A DNA stretch of 39,317 nucleotides. Source: Chloroflexota bacterium (lineage in GTDB: Bacteria > Chloroflexota > Anaerolineae > CG2-30-64-16). The translations under genes and the position numbers were made by a program. The DNA lies in NCBI GenBank assembly GCA_029555885.1, contig JAKPQT010000169.1, positions 1 to 39,317 of the forward strand. Direction: 5' to 3'. The notes under the pieces are model-generated. The model did no database searches and was not told where the DNA came from. It saw only the letters and a list, made by a program, of their open reading frames with translations. Of this stretch, positions 3,901 to 37,831 are shown piece after piece; the stretch's first letter is position 1; the number at the start of each line of letters is the position of its first letter.

Positions 3901-4956
3901 ATGACCTTCACACCCAACTATCACCATATGCTGGCGGTGCTGCGCAACGAGCGGCCCGCGCGTCTGCCCGTCTACGAACATATCATCAGTCCGCTCATCA
4001 TGGAGCGCATCTTGGGCGTCTCCTTTGCGGAAGCGGAGTCCGGCAAGGGTGCGGACCTGGACCACTTCTTCCATCATTACTGCCGCTTCTGGCAGGAGAT
4101 GACCTACGACACCGTCTCGTACGAGGTCTGCATCACGGAGGCGCTGCCCGGACCGGGCGCGATTCGCGGGGGCAAAGGCCAGCTCCAGACGCGCCAGGAC
4201 GTCGAACGTTATCCGTGGGATGAACTGCCGGCGCGCTACTGGACCATCGCCGCGCCGCGCTTTGACGCGCTTGGCCGTCACCTGCCGACGGGCATGAAGG
4301 CGCTCGGCGGGGTCGGCAACGGCGTGCTGGAAATCAGCGAGGACCTGGTCGGCTTCGAGTACCTGGCCTACATGCGCGCAGACGACCCGGAGCTGTTTGC
4401 TGATCTCTACCGTCGCATCGGTGACCTGATGGCGACCATCTGGCAGGAGTTCCTGCACCGCTACACCGATACGTTCGCCATCTGTCGCTTCGGCGACGAC
4501 CTGGGGTTCAAGACGAGCACACTCGTCTCGCCGCCTGTCATCCGCCAGCATATCATCCCGCAGTACCGCCGCGTCGTGGATATGGTGCGCCGGGCCAACC
4601 GTCCCTTCCTCTGGCACTCGTGCGGCAACATCTTCGGCGTAATGGATGACGTCATTGCGCTGGGCATCCATGCCAAGCACTCGAACGAAGACCAGATTGC
4701 GCCCTTCGAGACATGGATCGAGCGCTACGGCGACCGCATCGCACTGCTCGGCGGCATCGACGTGGATATCCTGTGTCGCGAGGACCCGGACGACATCTTC
4801 GAGCAGGTCAAGGAACGCGGGCTGAAATACCGGGCGCTGGCGCGCGGCTATGCGCTGGGTTCCGGCAACTCCATTCCGGACTACGTGCCCGTGGAGGGCT
4901 ACCTGGCGATGATCCGCGCAGCGCAGGCCATCCGCGCCGCAGAGGGGAACGCGTAG
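3901..4956 (+). CDS. URO-D-like family protein (MtaA/CmuA-type methyltransferase fold)
   Basis: 351 residues, resembling the uroporphyrinogen decarboxylase / cobalamin-dependent methyltransferase superfamily. The diagnostic block is FLWHSCGNIFGVMDD with His239 and Cys241, which in MtaA-type enzymes bind zinc. Later segments such as ALLGGIDVDILCREDPDDI and GYALGSGNSIPDYVPVEGY are also typical. It is not a haem-pathway HemE: it lacks a recognisable HemE N-terminus and is the first gene of a sugar operon, 165 bp from the divergent amino-sugar operon and directly abutting a PfkB kinase gene. Members in sugar loci are functionally uncharacterised. A role in handling methylated sugars or another small substrate is only a guess. 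Confidence 0.82.
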   Translation: MTFTPNYHHMLAVLRNERPARLPVYEHIISPLIMERILGVSFAEAESGKGADLDHFFHHYCRFWQEMTYDTVSYEVCITEALPGPGAIRGGKGQLQTRQDVERYPWDELPARYWTIAAPRFDALGRHLPTGMKALGGVGNGVLEISEDLVGFEYLAYMRADDPELFADLYRRIGDLMATIWQEFLHRYTDTFAICRFGDDLGFKTSTLVSPPVIRQHIIPQYRRVVDMVRRANRPFLWHSCGNIFGVMDDVIALGIHAKHSNEDQIAPFETWIERYGDRIALLGGIDVDILCREDPDDIFEQVKERGLKYRALARGYALGSGNSIPDYVPVEGYLAMIRAAQAIRAAEGNA

Positions 4957-33744: not shown

Positions 33745-34035
33745 TCTCACGCAAAGACGCCAAGGTTTACACTCATATAGACACTTTGCGTACTTTGCGG
33801 TGTAATTCCAACCCATCTTGGATAACTTGGTTGCGGCGCATTCTGAGCGGAGGGCGTCAGGGCCAGGCGCAGCCTGGCCCTGGGGCGCCCGCAGTCGAAG
33901 GAGCGCCAGCGTGGTTGTCAGTCCGGCTCCTTCGACTACGCCTCACCCTGCGAGTGAGGCTCCGCTCAGGATGCCTGGCTGGCTGAATTATCAAGGACTC
34001 ATTGGAATTACAGTACTTTGCGGCTTTGCGTGAGA
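33745..34035. repeat. Long inverted-repeat element with ACGCAAAG ends (family E)
   Basis: Outer arms TCTCACGCAAAGACGCCAAG (from 33745) and ACTTTGCGGCTTTGCGTGAG+A (to 34035), plus an inner ACTTTGCGTACTTTGCGG at 33783-33800. A family D palindrome (33838-33974) is nested inside. The right arm overlaps the last codons of the URO-D-like gene, where it encodes SHAKPQ. Confidence 0.75.
33838..33974. repeat. Palindromic element, family D copy 2, nested in family E
   Basis: Outer arms GCATTCTGAGCGGA (33838-33851) and TCCGCTCAGGATGC (33961-33974) match at 13 of 14 positions. Inside are the perfect 10-bp hairpin CAGGGCCAGG/CCTGGCCCTG, the 7-bp hairpin GCCTCAC/GTGAGGC, and a GTCGAAGGAGC/GCTCCTTCGAC pair. 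It shares the CTGAGCGGA and GTCGAAGG motifs with copy 1. Confidence 0.75.
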
Positions 34036-35004
34036 CTGAATGGGGATCTCCAGGAAAGCCTCGCACATCGCGTCGATGGCCTCCTGGCGGTGGCCGGCGC
34101 CGGCGGGGTCAGGATACCATTTCGGCAGGAAGCCGCCCACGAAGCGCCCGTGCTTCCAGCGGCCCAGCGTCAGGGCCATCCGCCGCGCATACGCCCGGAT
34201 TTCGTCCAGCGTGCCGTGCGCCATCGTCTTCTGGATGTCTACCGGATTCCAGAAGGTAATGCGCCCGGCAAAGCGCCGGCCCAGCAGGTCCAGCCCCATG
34301 TTCTCCTGCTGGTCCATTTGGATGACGTCCAGCCCGATTTCGATCAGGTCGTCGAGGATCGCGACGATGTGGCCGCAGGAATGGAGAAAGGTCGCCAGGC
34401 CCGCGGCATGTGCGGCCGCGCACAGGCGTGCATAGCGGGGCTTCCACAGGCTGCGCCAGGACGCCGGCGCGATCATCAGCCGTGTCTGCAGGCCCCAGTC
34501 GTCGCAGAAGTTGTACCCGTCGCAGCCCGCCGCGGCATATCGGTCGATCAGGACCAGGTTCATGTCCGTCAGGATGTCGAGCAAGTGGCACAACTGGTCA
34601 GGCGCCTCGTGGATGTCGGCCCAGGTGTTTTCGAGGCCGCGGATGAAGTGGACGCGTTCGTAGATGGAGATGCCGCCGCCGAGCAGGAACTTATCGCCGG
34701 CACGCTCGCGCGCGCCCTCCAGCGCGGTGTAGCGCCGCGGGTCGTGGATGTCGGGGATGGGGAGGCGATCGAAGTCGGCCCAGTCCTTCAGCGGGAACTC
34801 CTTGACCTCCCCCAGGTTGCTGACGCCGATGTTGTACCACACCGCGCCCCACTCATCCACGCCGCTGCGCGGCCGCGCGTCGGGCGACGGGTCGACGCCG
34901 CACCACGCGAAGTCGGAGCCGTACCGCTCCGGGAAGTCACGCGCCAGCCGGTCCGGATAGTCGAACGCCAGCGTCCGCCGGACAACCTCACGGCTTGTCA
35001 TCAT
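33991..35004 (-). CDS. URO-D-like family protein (second copy)
   Basis: 337 residues, same superfamily as the 3901-4956 protein but only distantly similar. The His-Cys motif is FLHSCGHIVAILDD (His208, Cys210, His212), with GYNFCDDWGLQTRLMIAP and QMDQQENMGLDLLGRRFAG. ATG 35004 has GGAGGG 8 nt upstream; the next codon is also ATG. The last residues, reading SHAKPQSTVIPMSP, come from an intergenic repeat, so the native C-terminus was probably near AFLEIPIQ. Reaction unknown; MtaA-like methyl transfer or decarboxylation are family options. Confidence 0.82.
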   Translation of the reverse strand: MMTSREVVRRTLAFDYPDRLARDFPERYGSDFAWCGVDPSPDARPRSGVDEWGAVWYNIGVSNLGEVKEFPLKDWADFDRLPIPDIHDPRRYTALEGARERAGDKFLLGGGISIYERVHFIRGLENTWADIHEAPDQLCHLLDILTDMNLVLIDRYAAAGCDGYNFCDDWGLQTRLMIAPASWRSLWKPRYARLCAAAHAAGLATFLHSCGHIVAILDDLIEIGLDVIQMDQQENMGLDLLGRRFAGRITFWNPVDIQKTMAHGTLDEIRAYARRMALTLGRWKHGRFVGGFLPKWYPDPAGAGHRQEAIDAMCEAFLEIPIQSHAKPQSTVIPMSP

Positions 35005-35866: not shown

Positions 35867-36097
35867 TCAGATGGCCTGGGGATTGTCGCTGACCGGTCTT
35901 GCTGCGCGTGCGCTGGCCCGCTGCAGGCAGAACGTGCCGCCGGCCATCGTCACTGCATGAAAGAGATAAGCGGGCACGAGCGCCCAAACATTGGTGTAAC
36001 CTTCCGCTTGGGAGACGACCTCTCCCACAATGTAAGCAATTCAGACCAGGCCGATCAGGAGCAGCGCGATGCCCCCGATGCGCCAGATAAGCTCCAT
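35867..36097 (-). CDS. Small membrane protein with in-frame UGA (putative selenoprotein), paralogue 1
   Basis: 76 codons if the in-frame TGA at 36043-36041 (codon 19) is read through. The strong site GGAGG-6 nt-ATG sets the start at 36097. Before TGA: MELIWRIGGIALLLIGLV, a membrane helix. After it: IAYIVGEVVSQ, a soluble stretch, PAYLFHAVT, and a short second hydrophobic segment to the stop at 35867. The neighbour upstream (36308-36123) has the same layout with TGA in the same place and the same PAYLFHxVT motif. A SECIS-like hairpin begins 13 nt after the TGA. I infer selenocysteine at residue 19 at the end of helix 1. TGG is used for Trp here, so UGA-as-Trp is unlikely. Function unknown. Confidence 0.72.
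36009..36027 (-). promoter_or_regulatory. Putative bacterial SECIS hairpin, paralogue 1
   Basis: In the minus-strand RNA, UGGGAGA-GGUCG-UCUCCCA is a perfect 7-bp stem with a 5-nt loop. The loop starts 20 nt after the UGA and has GU at positions 2-3, as in the E. coli fdhF SECIS loop recognised by SelB. Confidence 0.65.
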
Positions 36098-36122
36098 GTG
36101 TATCCTCCGCTTCCGGTAGAAC

Positions 36123-36308
36123 TCAAGCAGCGACTGCTTTCATGAGCAGCCAAAGGGCCAACACGGCAGTCACGCCGTGAAACAGATAGGCCGGGTACAT
36201 CTTGGGGCTGAGCGCCGAGGTTTTCTTGCGGAGCACGTCCGCCATTACGTAGAATATTCAGACTGCGGACAGCAGCCAGACCACGCCTGCACCGATCCAC
36301 CACCACAT
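36123..36308 (-). CDS. Small membrane protein with in-frame UGA (putative selenoprotein), paralogue 2
   Basis: 61 codons if the in-frame TGA at 36260-36258 (codon 17) is read. AGGAGG-6 nt-ATG sets the start at 36308. Before TGA: MWWWIGAGVVWLLSAV, one membrane helix. After it: IFYVMADVLRKKTSALSP, then PAYLFHGVT and a second helix, LALWLLMKAVAA, to the stop at 36123. Aligned with the gene 25 bp downstream, V-TGA-I-x-Y, the V six residues on and PAYLFH[AG]VT coincide. Four TGG Trp codons lie in this very gene, and TGA ends it, so the internal TGA is context-recoded, not a general code change. A hairpin sits at the same offset. Upstream (36309-36443) a 7-bp hairpin CACGGCA/TGCCGTG lies in the leader. 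Confidence 0.72.
36228..36242 (-). promoter_or_regulatory. Putative bacterial SECIS hairpin, paralogue 2
   Basis: In the minus-strand RNA, GCGGA-CGUGC-UCCGC gives a 5-bp stem and 5-nt loop, again starting exactly 20 nt after the UGA and again with GU at loop positions 2-3. Two base pairs differ from the paralogue's stem by compensatory changes. Confidence 0.6.
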
Positions 36309-36443
36309 GAGATGCCTCCTCCGGGGATGTTGCACGGCAATCGCTGCCGTGGCTGTATGGTAATACGTGCGGGCGCGGCGGAGGTTGCACTTTCGGCTGC
36401 TTGCGGGCCAGCCGGAGGAGGGCCGCGGCGTTGATCTGGAGCG

Positions 36444-37115
36444 TTATAGGGTGGGAAATGTCCGCCGCGCGGCGTACCATTGGACGGCCAGGCGGCCGAC
36501 GAGCCGGGTGGCTGCGTAGTTGAACGCAAACCCGATGACTGCGCCGACGATCGGGACGACTTTCAGCAGCGATTCGGCGACGGTCTCCGCGACGAGGCGG
36601 CGGATGAGCTGGGCCACGGCTGCCTGGACCGCGCGGTTGGAGGCCTCCGCCCACTGCTGGCTGAACCGCTGGCCGGCCAGGATGGCATAGGTTTGCAGCC
36701 GCAGTGTGTCGGCCGGCTGGCCGGGCGCGAACGTCTGCGCGATGAAGTGAATGGTGGCCGCCTGGATTTTGGCGGAGAGCGCAAAGTCCACCGGAATGGC
36801 GATGGGCAGCGTGAGGATGCCGCCCACGCCGGTCAGCGCGCCGACCAGCCCGGCCTTGAACGCTTGGTCATTAATGACGCGCGTCACGAGGGCTGCGTCG
36901 CTCGCGGCTGGGTGGCGCCGGCGCAGCTCGTCGAGCCGCAGCGCGAGTTGCGCGGAATCCGGCGTCATCCAGCGGTCGAAGGCGGCGCGGGCGCGGCGGG
37001 TGCCGGCCAGCAGCAACGCGACCAGCACTGACAGGACGACGATGAGGAACAACCCGCTGCAGGCCAGCACGATCAACAGCGTGCGCAGCAGGTCAGGGTC
37101 GATGAGGGGCGTCAT
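36444..37115 (-). CDS. EcsC-family membrane-associated protein
   Basis: 223 residues. One N-terminal membrane helix (about 9-36) precedes a soluble region with the EcsC-type pattern FKAGLVGALTGVGGILTLPI followed by AKIQAATIHFIAQTFAPG. A hydrophobic segment, VVPIVGAVIGFAFNYAATRLV, follows near the end. ATG 37115 is chosen because it overlaps the upstream stop as ATGA; ATG 37130 is an alternative. EcsC family function is poorly defined. It is co-transcribed with the DUF4230 gene, and the two small UGA genes follow 135 bp downstream, possibly on the same transcript. Confidence 0.8.
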   Translation of the reverse strand: MTPLIDPDLLRTLLIVLACSGLFLIVVLSVLVALLLAGTRRARAAFDRWMTPDSAQLALRLDELRRRHPAASDAALVTRVINDQAFKAGLVGALTGVGGILTLPIAIPVDFALSAKIQAATIHFIAQTFAPGQPADTLRLQTYAILAGQRFSQQWAEASNRAVQAAVAQLIRRLVAETVAESLLKVVPIVGAVIGFAFNYAATRLVGRLAVQWYAARRTFPTL

Positions 37116-37831
37116 GGCGTCTCCGGACATGCGGGCACGGCCGCAGCCCTCACCGTCACGTCGAACTCATACAGCGCGAGCAGCTTCTCTAGCGCGCGCT
37201 GCGCATCTTCGGTCGCCTGGACCAGGATGCCAGCTTCGCACGCGCCGCGCAAGATCTCTGCCTCTGCCGCCTGCCGCGCCTGCGTCTCCAGGTCCGCGTT
37301 GGGCGACGCGAACAGGCCCTGCTGCCGGTCATAAACGCGCGTCCGTGCGTTGTCGAGGATGCTGTTGCTGTTGAAGATTTCGACGGGCGGCAGGTCCACG
37401 GTGACGCTCGCGCCGTCCTCCGACACGGCGACAGACGCCGCGTCGAGCCGCTCCAGGTCCACCCCGGCCACGACGGTGCCGCTGGCAATCAGCAGCAGGC
37501 GATCCCCGCGCAGCCAGTCGGGCCAGAACTCGTCGGACTGCTTGACCTCGATGACCCGCTCGACGGTGTAGACGGTCGTTTCGAGCCGGCTCACCTGGCG
37601 AATCTGCTGGACGATGGCATCGCCTGAGATGATGACGGGCGCGGGCGTGGCCGCCGGCGCGCGGCCCAATAGGGTCATCACCCGGTCAACGACGGACGCG
37701 CCGCCGCCCGTCAGCAAACCGAGCAGGAAGATCAGCGCGGCAAAGAATACAGTCAAGAGACCGATTAAGACATAACGACAGCCTGAGTTCCCGCGGCGCG
37801 TTTCGGGATAGGGATGTGATTCGCTTTCCAT
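37112..37831 (-). CDS. DUF4230 membrane-anchored protein
   Basis: 239 residues. A short cytoplasmic N-terminus and one membrane helix (about 19-43) lead to an extracytoplasmic domain. This has the DUF4230 pattern RLETTVYTVERVIEVKQS, GDRLLLIASGTVVAGVDLE, VTVDLPPVEIFNSNSILDN and VYDRQQGLF, with a helical tail. No enzymatic function is known for the family. Its stop overlaps the EcsC gene's start (ATGA). A TATACT box lies 6 nt before the ATG, so the transcript is probably leaderless, as for recJ. Confidence 0.88.
   Translation of the reverse strand: MESESHPYPETRRGNSGCRYVLIGLLTVFFAALIFLLGLLTGGGASVVDRVMTLLGRAPAATPAPVIISGDAIVQQIRQVSRLETTVYTVERVIEVKQSDEFWPDWLRGDRLLLIASGTVVAGVDLERLDAASVAVSEDGASVTVDLPPVEIFNSNSILDNARTRVYDRQQGLFASPNADLETQARQAAEAEILRGACEAGILVQATEDAQRALEKLLALYEFDVTVRAAAVPACPETP

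Follow-up and report, generated by a model that had tools for sequence, protein, structure and literature searches.

Adjacent paralogous genes with aligned in-frame UGA codons, very probably encoding a pair of two-helix membrane selenoproteins

What do two adjacent small genes encode when each is interrupted, at the same aligned codon, by a single TGA? The question is raised by a locus on contig JAKPQT010000169.1 of a Chloroflexota bacterium (GenBank assembly GCA_029555885.1); the whole stretch of DNA that was analysed, 39,317 nucleotides, is called the window below. The original prediction, made from the letters of the DNA, described two small minus-strand genes with a Shine-Dalgarno site and a single in-frame TGA apiece, paralogous to each other with the TGA at one aligned position, and both missed by standard gene calling. 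Each of these features is present, at the positions collected in Table 1, where the genes are designated A and B. They lie on the minus strand with 25 bases between them. Read through its TGA (U), gene A gives the product MWWWIGAGVVWLLSAVUIFYVMADVLRKKTSALSPKMYPAYLFHGVTAVLALWLLMKAVAA, and gene B gives MELIWRIGGIALLLIGLVUIAYIVGEVVSQAEGYTNVWALVPAYLFHAVTMAGGTFCLQRASARAARPVSDNPQAI. The two products align over 59 columns at 34% identity, with the TGAs in register. A standard listing of open reading frames in the window returns just a 40-residue piece of A and a 53-residue piece of B, both of which begin after the TGA.

Table 1. Coordinates in the window of genes A and B and of their proposed recoding elements.
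Feature	Positions	Strand	Remarks
Gene A Shine-Dalgarno site	36315..36322	(-)	GGAGGAGG, read directly
Gene A (61 codons, one an in-frame TGA), predicted to encode a two-helix membrane selenoprotein	36123..36308	(-)	ATG at 36308; final TGA at 36125-36123
Gene A in-frame TGA, codon 17, likely selenocysteine	36258..36260	(-)	TGA in 12/12 loci; Cys in P0004-P0006
Gene A SECIS-like hairpin, stem GCGGA/TCCGC, loop CGTGC	36228..36242	(-)	Loop starts 20 nt past TGA
Gene B Shine-Dalgarno site (GGAGG)	36104..36108	(-)	Read directly
Gene B (76 codons, one an in-frame TGA; paralogue of A), predicted to encode a two-helix membrane selenoprotein	35867..36097	(-)	ATG at 36097; final TGA at 35869-35867
Gene B in-frame TGA, codon 19, likely selenocysteine	36041..36043	(-)	TGA in 12/12 loci; Gly/Leu in P0011/P0012
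Gene B SECIS-like hairpin, stem TGGGAGA/TCTCCCA, loop GGTCG	36009..36027	(-)	Loop starts 20 nt past TGA

A protein search with A, in which U was written as C, returned eight proteins: the window's own 40-residue piece, three full-length homologues with Cys, and four pieces of 40-43 residues. The full-length homologues (P0004-P0006), all metagenomic, carry the Cys exactly at the Sec site, in three of the three full-length sequences without TGA. The pieces (P0007-P0010) have their first residue downstream of the site. Gene B used alone as a query matched no protein, and a profile built from 12 B proteins matched six (P0011-P0016). Two of these, P0011 and P0012, are metagenomic, full-length B homologues in which Gly and Leu occupy the Sec site and the helix-2 His is kept. 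The other four (P0013-P0016) are pieces of 46-57 residues whose first residue again lies downstream of the site, one of them a hypothetical protein of a Chloroflexota MAG. No Cys stands at the site among the B homologues found. Cys-containing homologues, which the original prediction had offered as a check, therefore support it for A (three proteins) but not for B, where Gly and Leu are seen. Sec may possibly have been lost from B in P0011 and P0012, and their Gly and Leu suggest that B's selenol is dispensable in some lineages.

A scan of genome contigs recovered tandem A and B genes with both TGAs in L001, a Chloroflexi MAG, and in L002, a Pelotomaculum MAG. A third match, in L003 (Acidobacteria), is a stretch of 30% identity without the His and without TGA, and was dropped. 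Searches with an A profile gave strong matches in 7 of 400 genomes from the phylum of L001, in 3 of 398 from the phylum of L002, and in 6 of 156 from the order of genome G109, five of these last already in the phylum-wide set. The total is 11 carrier genomes, eight in one phylum and three in the other, and every A match holds exactly one TGA. With the window added, the collection comprises 12 loci. Gene B directly follows gene A at all 12, and the aligned TGA is present in 24 of 24 genes, so that homologues with a conserved TGA, another check named at the outset, are found for A and for B in 11 of 11 genomes besides the window. A B profile searched against the phylum of G001 (n=400) gave strong matches in the same seven genomes as A. 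A and B form a unit, which is rare.

Weaker matches were treated separately. The B profile matched ten further genomes weakly (E 3.7e-4 to 0.009), and no A-B pair was seen in those ten. When their loci (L072-L081) were compared by local tblastn with two A and two B proteins, just L081 reached E < 0.005, and the group was set aside. The match there, at L081:1504-1590 (+) in the 11.3-Mb genome G354, is a stretch resembling helix 2 of gene B, with the His, inside a 220-residue open frame (tblastn E 5e-6). Weak A matches (E 0.004-0.006) in G355, G549 and G462 were left out of the count. The first falls in a frame containing GxGKT and is not a member; that in G462 has a stop inside the match. The G549 match (L039:1498-1611 (+)) is a 66-residue frame that begins MWWILALLG; its Cys aligns with A's Sec site, but it lacks the helix-2 His, and it is possibly a product of chance or a remote cousin of A. 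A tblastn search of plasmids with A gave no match, and viral contigs searched with A gave seven pattern matches and no relative. Among the accepted loci one irregularity occurs: gene B of L051 (L051:6467-6682 (-)) has no ATG, GTG or TTG ahead of helix 1; its start may be an ATC or ATA preceded by an AGGAG site, which would mean a rare start codon or a sequencing slip.

Sequence on both sides of the TGA varies as coding sequence does. Mismatch rates among the A genes at codon positions 1, 2 and 3 are 0.39, 0.30 and 0.59 before the TGA and 0.43, 0.27 and 0.62 after it; for B, around the His codon, they are 0.40, 0.35 and 0.63. Position 3 is thus the most variable after the TGA, a mark of coding constraint; a lack of purifying selection downstream had been named among the findings that would speak against recoding, and it is not borne out. 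At codons +6 to +10 of A the position-3 mismatch drops to 0.03.

These codons underlie a potential hairpin. In the available part of a 2026 review, a bSECIS element is defined by a loop of 3-9 nt, a stem of 4-16 bp, a G within the first two loop bases, a loop lying 16-37 nt past the UGA, and an energy of no more than -7.5 kcal/mol (PMC13188914). A hairpin of this shape and at this distance occurs in all 24 A and B genes, and the distance from the TGA to the loop start of the best one is 20 nt in 22 genes and 21 nt in the other two. The fold energy of a 48-nt segment is -7.5 kcal/mol or lower in 21 of 24, with values of -7.4 for A of the window and -6.5 for A of both G109 and G093. The minimum-energy fold of that segment takes the proposed register in 19 of 24 genes and differs in A of G265, G042, G413 and G001 and in B of G533. 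Taken singly, the A hairpins are weak, with stem energies from -3.8 to -10.0, and for five of the 12 A genes, 13-24% of positions picked at random in that locus give an equally good hairpin; for B of G893 the figure is 12.5%.

Comparison across loci is more telling. Numbering from the T of TGA, all 24 genes have G-U at positions 25-26, within the loop. This dinucleotide opens an invariant Val codon whose third base is fixed as well, as GTG in 12/12 A genes and GTC in 12/12 B genes. Where two A genes share a residue at codons +5 to +10, they share the codon too in 252 of 252 comparisons, versus 627 of 1452 elsewhere in A. Under the B hairpin the codon is identical in 160 of 168 such comparisons, versus 182 of 493 elsewhere, within a span of codon -12 to +11, beyond which there is an indel. 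The B stem shows two-sided changes that preserve pairing at positions 18, 20, 21, 22 and 23, although these mainly separate two groups of loci plus G893 and so amount to few events. At each of its seven positions, 17-23, a standard pair is kept by 11 or 12 of the 12 loci, a count biased towards pairing in that each sequence was scored in whichever of two registers, with a loop of 4 or of 5, paired better. In the A stem, held to a fixed register, G042 loses three of five pairs and can form a shifted 4-bp stem. The hairpin register, together with the synonymous freezing that accompanies it, is beyond chance.

Carrier genomes also encode the means to insert selenocysteine. Searches for Sec genes in the carriers, as the original prediction had advised, found selA over its cut-off in 11 of 11, tRNA-Sec over its cut-off in 11 of 11, and selB over its cut-off in both of the two carriers searched. 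Because selA is frequent among non-carriers as well (97 of 156 genomes in the order of G109 score over the cut-off, all six carriers included), the machinery in the carriers is by itself just mildly informative. The phylum of L001 was sampled at 400 genomes, and selA is present in 19 of the 20 with the best RecJ match to the window. The available part of a report on D. alkenigignens records Sec genes, with selD and formate dehydrogenase as selenoproteins (PMC4918011). The TGAs had been proposed to be recoded as selenocysteine, and this has held up: the conserved TGA, the selA and tRNA-Sec of the carriers, the hairpin and the Cys homologues of A speak for it, and the Gly and Leu of the B homologues speak against a strictly Sec/Cys site. 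We conclude that the in-frame UGAs of A and B are almost certainly decoded as Sec.

Both products are predicted to be small helical hairpins. AlphaFold2 models A with helices at residues 3-26 and 35-60 (pLDDT 95.6) and B with helices at 2-30 and 37-65 (pLDDT 84.4); neither model matched a solved structure at E <= 0.001. Invariant residues in 15 of 15 rows of the A alignment are M1, W3, W4, I5, the U/C site, I18, K29, H44, G45, A48, L50 and A58, and those in the 12 B rows are G9, G16, U19, V27, H47 and G54. Counted from the loop, Sec is predicted to lie beyond the midpoint of helix 1 by a few residues, with the His at a similar depth in helix 2, and the invariant Sec and His of each protein are accordingly predicted to lie inside the membrane.

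The two proteins differ in the distribution of positive charge. Lys and Arg summed over the loci number 45 in the loop versus 5 in the tails for A, and 5 in the loop versus 55 in the tails for B, where the starts are partly assumed. The sign of the bias is the same in 12/12 loci for A and in 12/12 for B, which, the loci being kin to one another, does not represent 12 independent events; the smallest margins are those of G002 A (+1) and G893 B (-1). By the positive-inside rule, positively charged segments of membrane proteins tend to remain on the inner side. Applied here, the rule would place the loop of A inside and that of B outside, making the paralogues antiparallel, and on charge we lean towards such an antiparallel pair in the membrane.

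It is very probable, in our judgement, that the adjacent paralogues A and B are a pair of two-helix membrane selenoproteins. As we picture the system, the UGA would be decoded by tRNA-Sec and SelB, and the hairpin with its loop starting 20-21 nt further on would act as SECIS. Both proteins would be helical hairpins, A with its N and C ends outside and B with its ends inside, and the two might form a heterodimer in which the selenols come near mid-membrane, each beside the invariant helix-2 His. A's Sec, which Cys can replace, is proposed as the main reacting group. B's Sec could be its usual partner, with a diselenide forming on oxidation; the Gly and Leu of two B homologues mean that an A-B diselenide cannot be general. 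The unit might donate electrons to, or accept them from, a membrane-soluble partner, for instance a quinone, or might reduce a lipid-soluble oxidant; electron transfer with a membrane-soluble partner is proposed on the grounds of one selenol per protein, a His at like depth, and the exchange to Cys in A. That the pair acts as a single intramembrane redox unit we hold tentatively, at somewhat under an even chance. In the fullest version, inverted paralogous hairpins would hold two Sec that face each other near mid-membrane, giving a selenium redox centre within the membrane that occurs across Chloroflexota and Bacillota and differs from every selenoprotein in the review's catalogue; this version is more doubtful still.

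Gene neighbourhoods were surveyed for open reading frames of at least 70 residues within 6.5 kb of the pair at the 12 loci, and no neighbour family is present at more than five of them. The two commonest families, which we take to be CoaBC and NnrD, each occur in the same five order-mates, on the other strand and at varying distance. Ten neighbour proteins scanned comprise a reductive dehalogenase (G042), alpha/beta hydrolases (G533, G893), a flavodoxin (G893), an amine-oxidase-like flavoprotein (G002), an FAD-linked oxidase (G172), a cupin (G093), the EcsC and DUF4230 proteins of the window, and one protein without a match (G109). The reductive dehalogenase gene of G042 (PF13486; L047:5844-7358 (+)) has its end some 340 bases ahead of gene A. 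This position of a small membrane protein, after rdhA, resembles that of RdhB, but no similar dehalogenase gene was seen near the pair elsewhere. In the window, genes of the EcsC family (PF12787) and DUF4230 (PF14014) lie directly upstream of the pair at 36447-37831 (-); no EcsC/DUF4230-like gene was seen near the pair at the other 11 loci. The window also contains two distantly similar genes, at 3901-4956 (+) and 33991-35004 (-), for what are presumably uroporphyrinogen-decarboxylase-like methyltransferases, both surrounded by apparent sugar-metabolism genes.

The best rival to a redox role keeps the same selenoproteins and makes them a binder or membrane carrier of a soft metal or metalloid, similar to MerF or MerT; the ligands would be Sec and His. 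Such a role would suit small helical hairpins that have a chalcogen within helix 1 and an invariant His in helix 2, and an opposite charge bias is usual for small paired transporters such as SMR pairs. Each protein has a single invariant chalcogen, however, and not a pair; no Mer-family Pfam match appears at E <= 10 for A or B of the window or for P0004-P0006, and none of the ten scanned neighbour proteins (0/10) belongs to a metal-resistance family. Precedents exist, in that the review table includes a putative mercuric transport selenoprotein (PF02411, motif C/SxxU) and other transport selenoproteins (PMC13188914). We rate the carrier as a serious possibility, though an unlikely one.

Redox unit and metal carrier alike take the UGAs as Sec; the remaining rivals dispute this. 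One holds that a suppressor tRNA, or general read-through, inserts Cys or Trp at the UGA, and the Cys of the A homologues would fit decoding as Cys equally well. TGA nevertheless still appears to act as a stop, judging from loci where it is the first stop past the Sec site and likely the real end of the gene (4 of 12 for A, 2 of 12 for B). The tRNA-Sec of the carriers has the anticodon TCA in 11 of 11 according to ARAGORN, and selD has an in-frame TGA at its own Sec site in seven of the nine selA regions fetched, with all seven confirmed as selD by model TIGR00476; no selD motif was found in the fetched selA stretches of G893 and G002. Further points against this rival are the hairpin codons frozen at synonymous sites and the fact that none of the 29 A and B sequences spanning the site has Trp there. 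An opal suppressor tRNA in Chloroflexi is not described in the available passages of PMC5424206, and the word UGA is absent from that paper. Altogether, decoding as Cys or Trp is very improbable. The selD genes (L083, L084, L085, L086, L087, L089, L090) each show a hairpin loop 16-17 nt downstream of the in-frame TGA, versus 20 nt for the twin genes of the same genomes.

A slightly less probable rival divides each gene in two, a short leader peptide followed by an open reading frame restarted past the TGA. Gene callers do output such downstream frames (in the window, and as P0007-P0010 and P0013-P0016), and possible start codons are available in gene A, namely ATG at codon +5 (11/12 loci) and GTG at codon +8 (12/12). 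The A gene of G413, however, has CTT at +5 (the GTG at +8 is kept), five of 12 B genes lack any ATG, GTG or TTG within 20 codons past the TGA, and the full-length homologues with Cys, Gly or Leu cross the site in one frame. Lastly, nonsense mutations or assembly errors in decaying genes, which a single locus alone could not have excluded, are refuted by the recurrence of TGA at the aligned codon in all 24 genes, 12/12 A and 12/12 B, from two phyla and by coding constraint on both sides of the TGA, where codon position 3 is the most variable, so that their probability is negligible and the original judgement that coincidental nonsense codons are improbable is upheld.

With Sec as the reading of both UGAs, the pair can be set against what has been catalogued. 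Against Pfam at E <= 10, A and B of the window and P0004-P0006 gave a best E of 0.002, every match falling under its cut-off. No model for A or B was found in NCBIfam of June 2026, whether for those five proteins at E <= 10 or for 15 A and 12 B proteins at E <= 0.1, and no Tso or Sao model was among the NCBIfam matches at E <= 0.1. The 2026 review tabulates 119 prokaryotic selenoprotein families or subfamilies; no entry of that table fits A or B by name, motif or domain, and no listed family with a Pfam or NCBIfam model matches them (PMC13188914). A literature search, covering titles and the openings of abstracts, found no such selenoprotein pair named, and none is described in the available parts of PMC12013277 (deep-Sep), PMC1914089 and PMC5424206. 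The claim that the genes match no described selenoprotein family thus finds support in Pfam, NCBIfam and the review table, and A and B are likely a new pair of selenium-containing membrane proteins relative to Pfam, NCBIfam and the literature covered.

Two linked selenoprotein families, cut to short pieces by gene callers, would thereby be added from genomes already public. The case is firmer than one built on a lone locus, as it concerns a two-gene selenoprotein unit in two phyla. Screens built on annotated proteins likely miss very small genes of this kind, and frozen synonymous sites under a hairpin provide a simple test that could reveal other very small selenoproteins with no need of Cys homologues. 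Having neither a thioredoxin-like fold nor a conserved second Cys, A and B would widen the known uses of Sec and, if so, would likely extend its chemistry into the lipid bilayer.

Several known systems resemble the pair in part. Small multidrug transporters (SMR) of the EbrAB type are paired, oppositely oriented subunits, each with four helices, about 105 residues and a Glu in helix 1. A and B are likewise small membrane proteins, paralogous to each other and oppositely biased in charge in 12/12 loci, but they have two helices rather than four and, with no conserved Glu in helix 1, have Sec and His instead. Four of 12 B members match the SMR transporter model NF000148 of NCBIfam weakly (best E 1.8e-4), which may reflect hydrophobic composition only. 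MerF is a helical hairpin, and the mercury carriers MerT and MerF have paired Cys in one protein, whereas A and B have a single invariant U/C per protein. The mercuric transport selenoprotein and MerF resemble A and B as small membrane proteins with Sec or Cys; A and B differ from them in having no Pfam match, no C/SxxU motif, a single Sec each, and a paralogous partner gene adjoining in 12/12 loci. Bacterial selenoproteins that depend on a bSECIS, such as formate dehydrogenase and SelD, share with A and B the in-frame UGA, the hairpin near downstream, the G-U in its loop, a host with selA and tRNA-Sec (and selB where searched) and, in the case of A, Cys homologues. Most characterised bacterial selenoproteins have a thioredoxin-like fold and a redox motif, according to the available part of the review (PMC13188914), whereas A and B, some 60-80 residues long, consist almost wholly of membrane segments and have a single Sec without a second conserved Cys. 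Selenoprotein genes also stand side by side in the three-selenoprotein Tso operon and in the SAO operon, as described in the same part of that review, where they belong to different families (for example the rhodanese-like TsoB; SaoX, SaoB and SaoP of ABC transport; PMC13188914); A and B, by contrast, are paralogues of each other.
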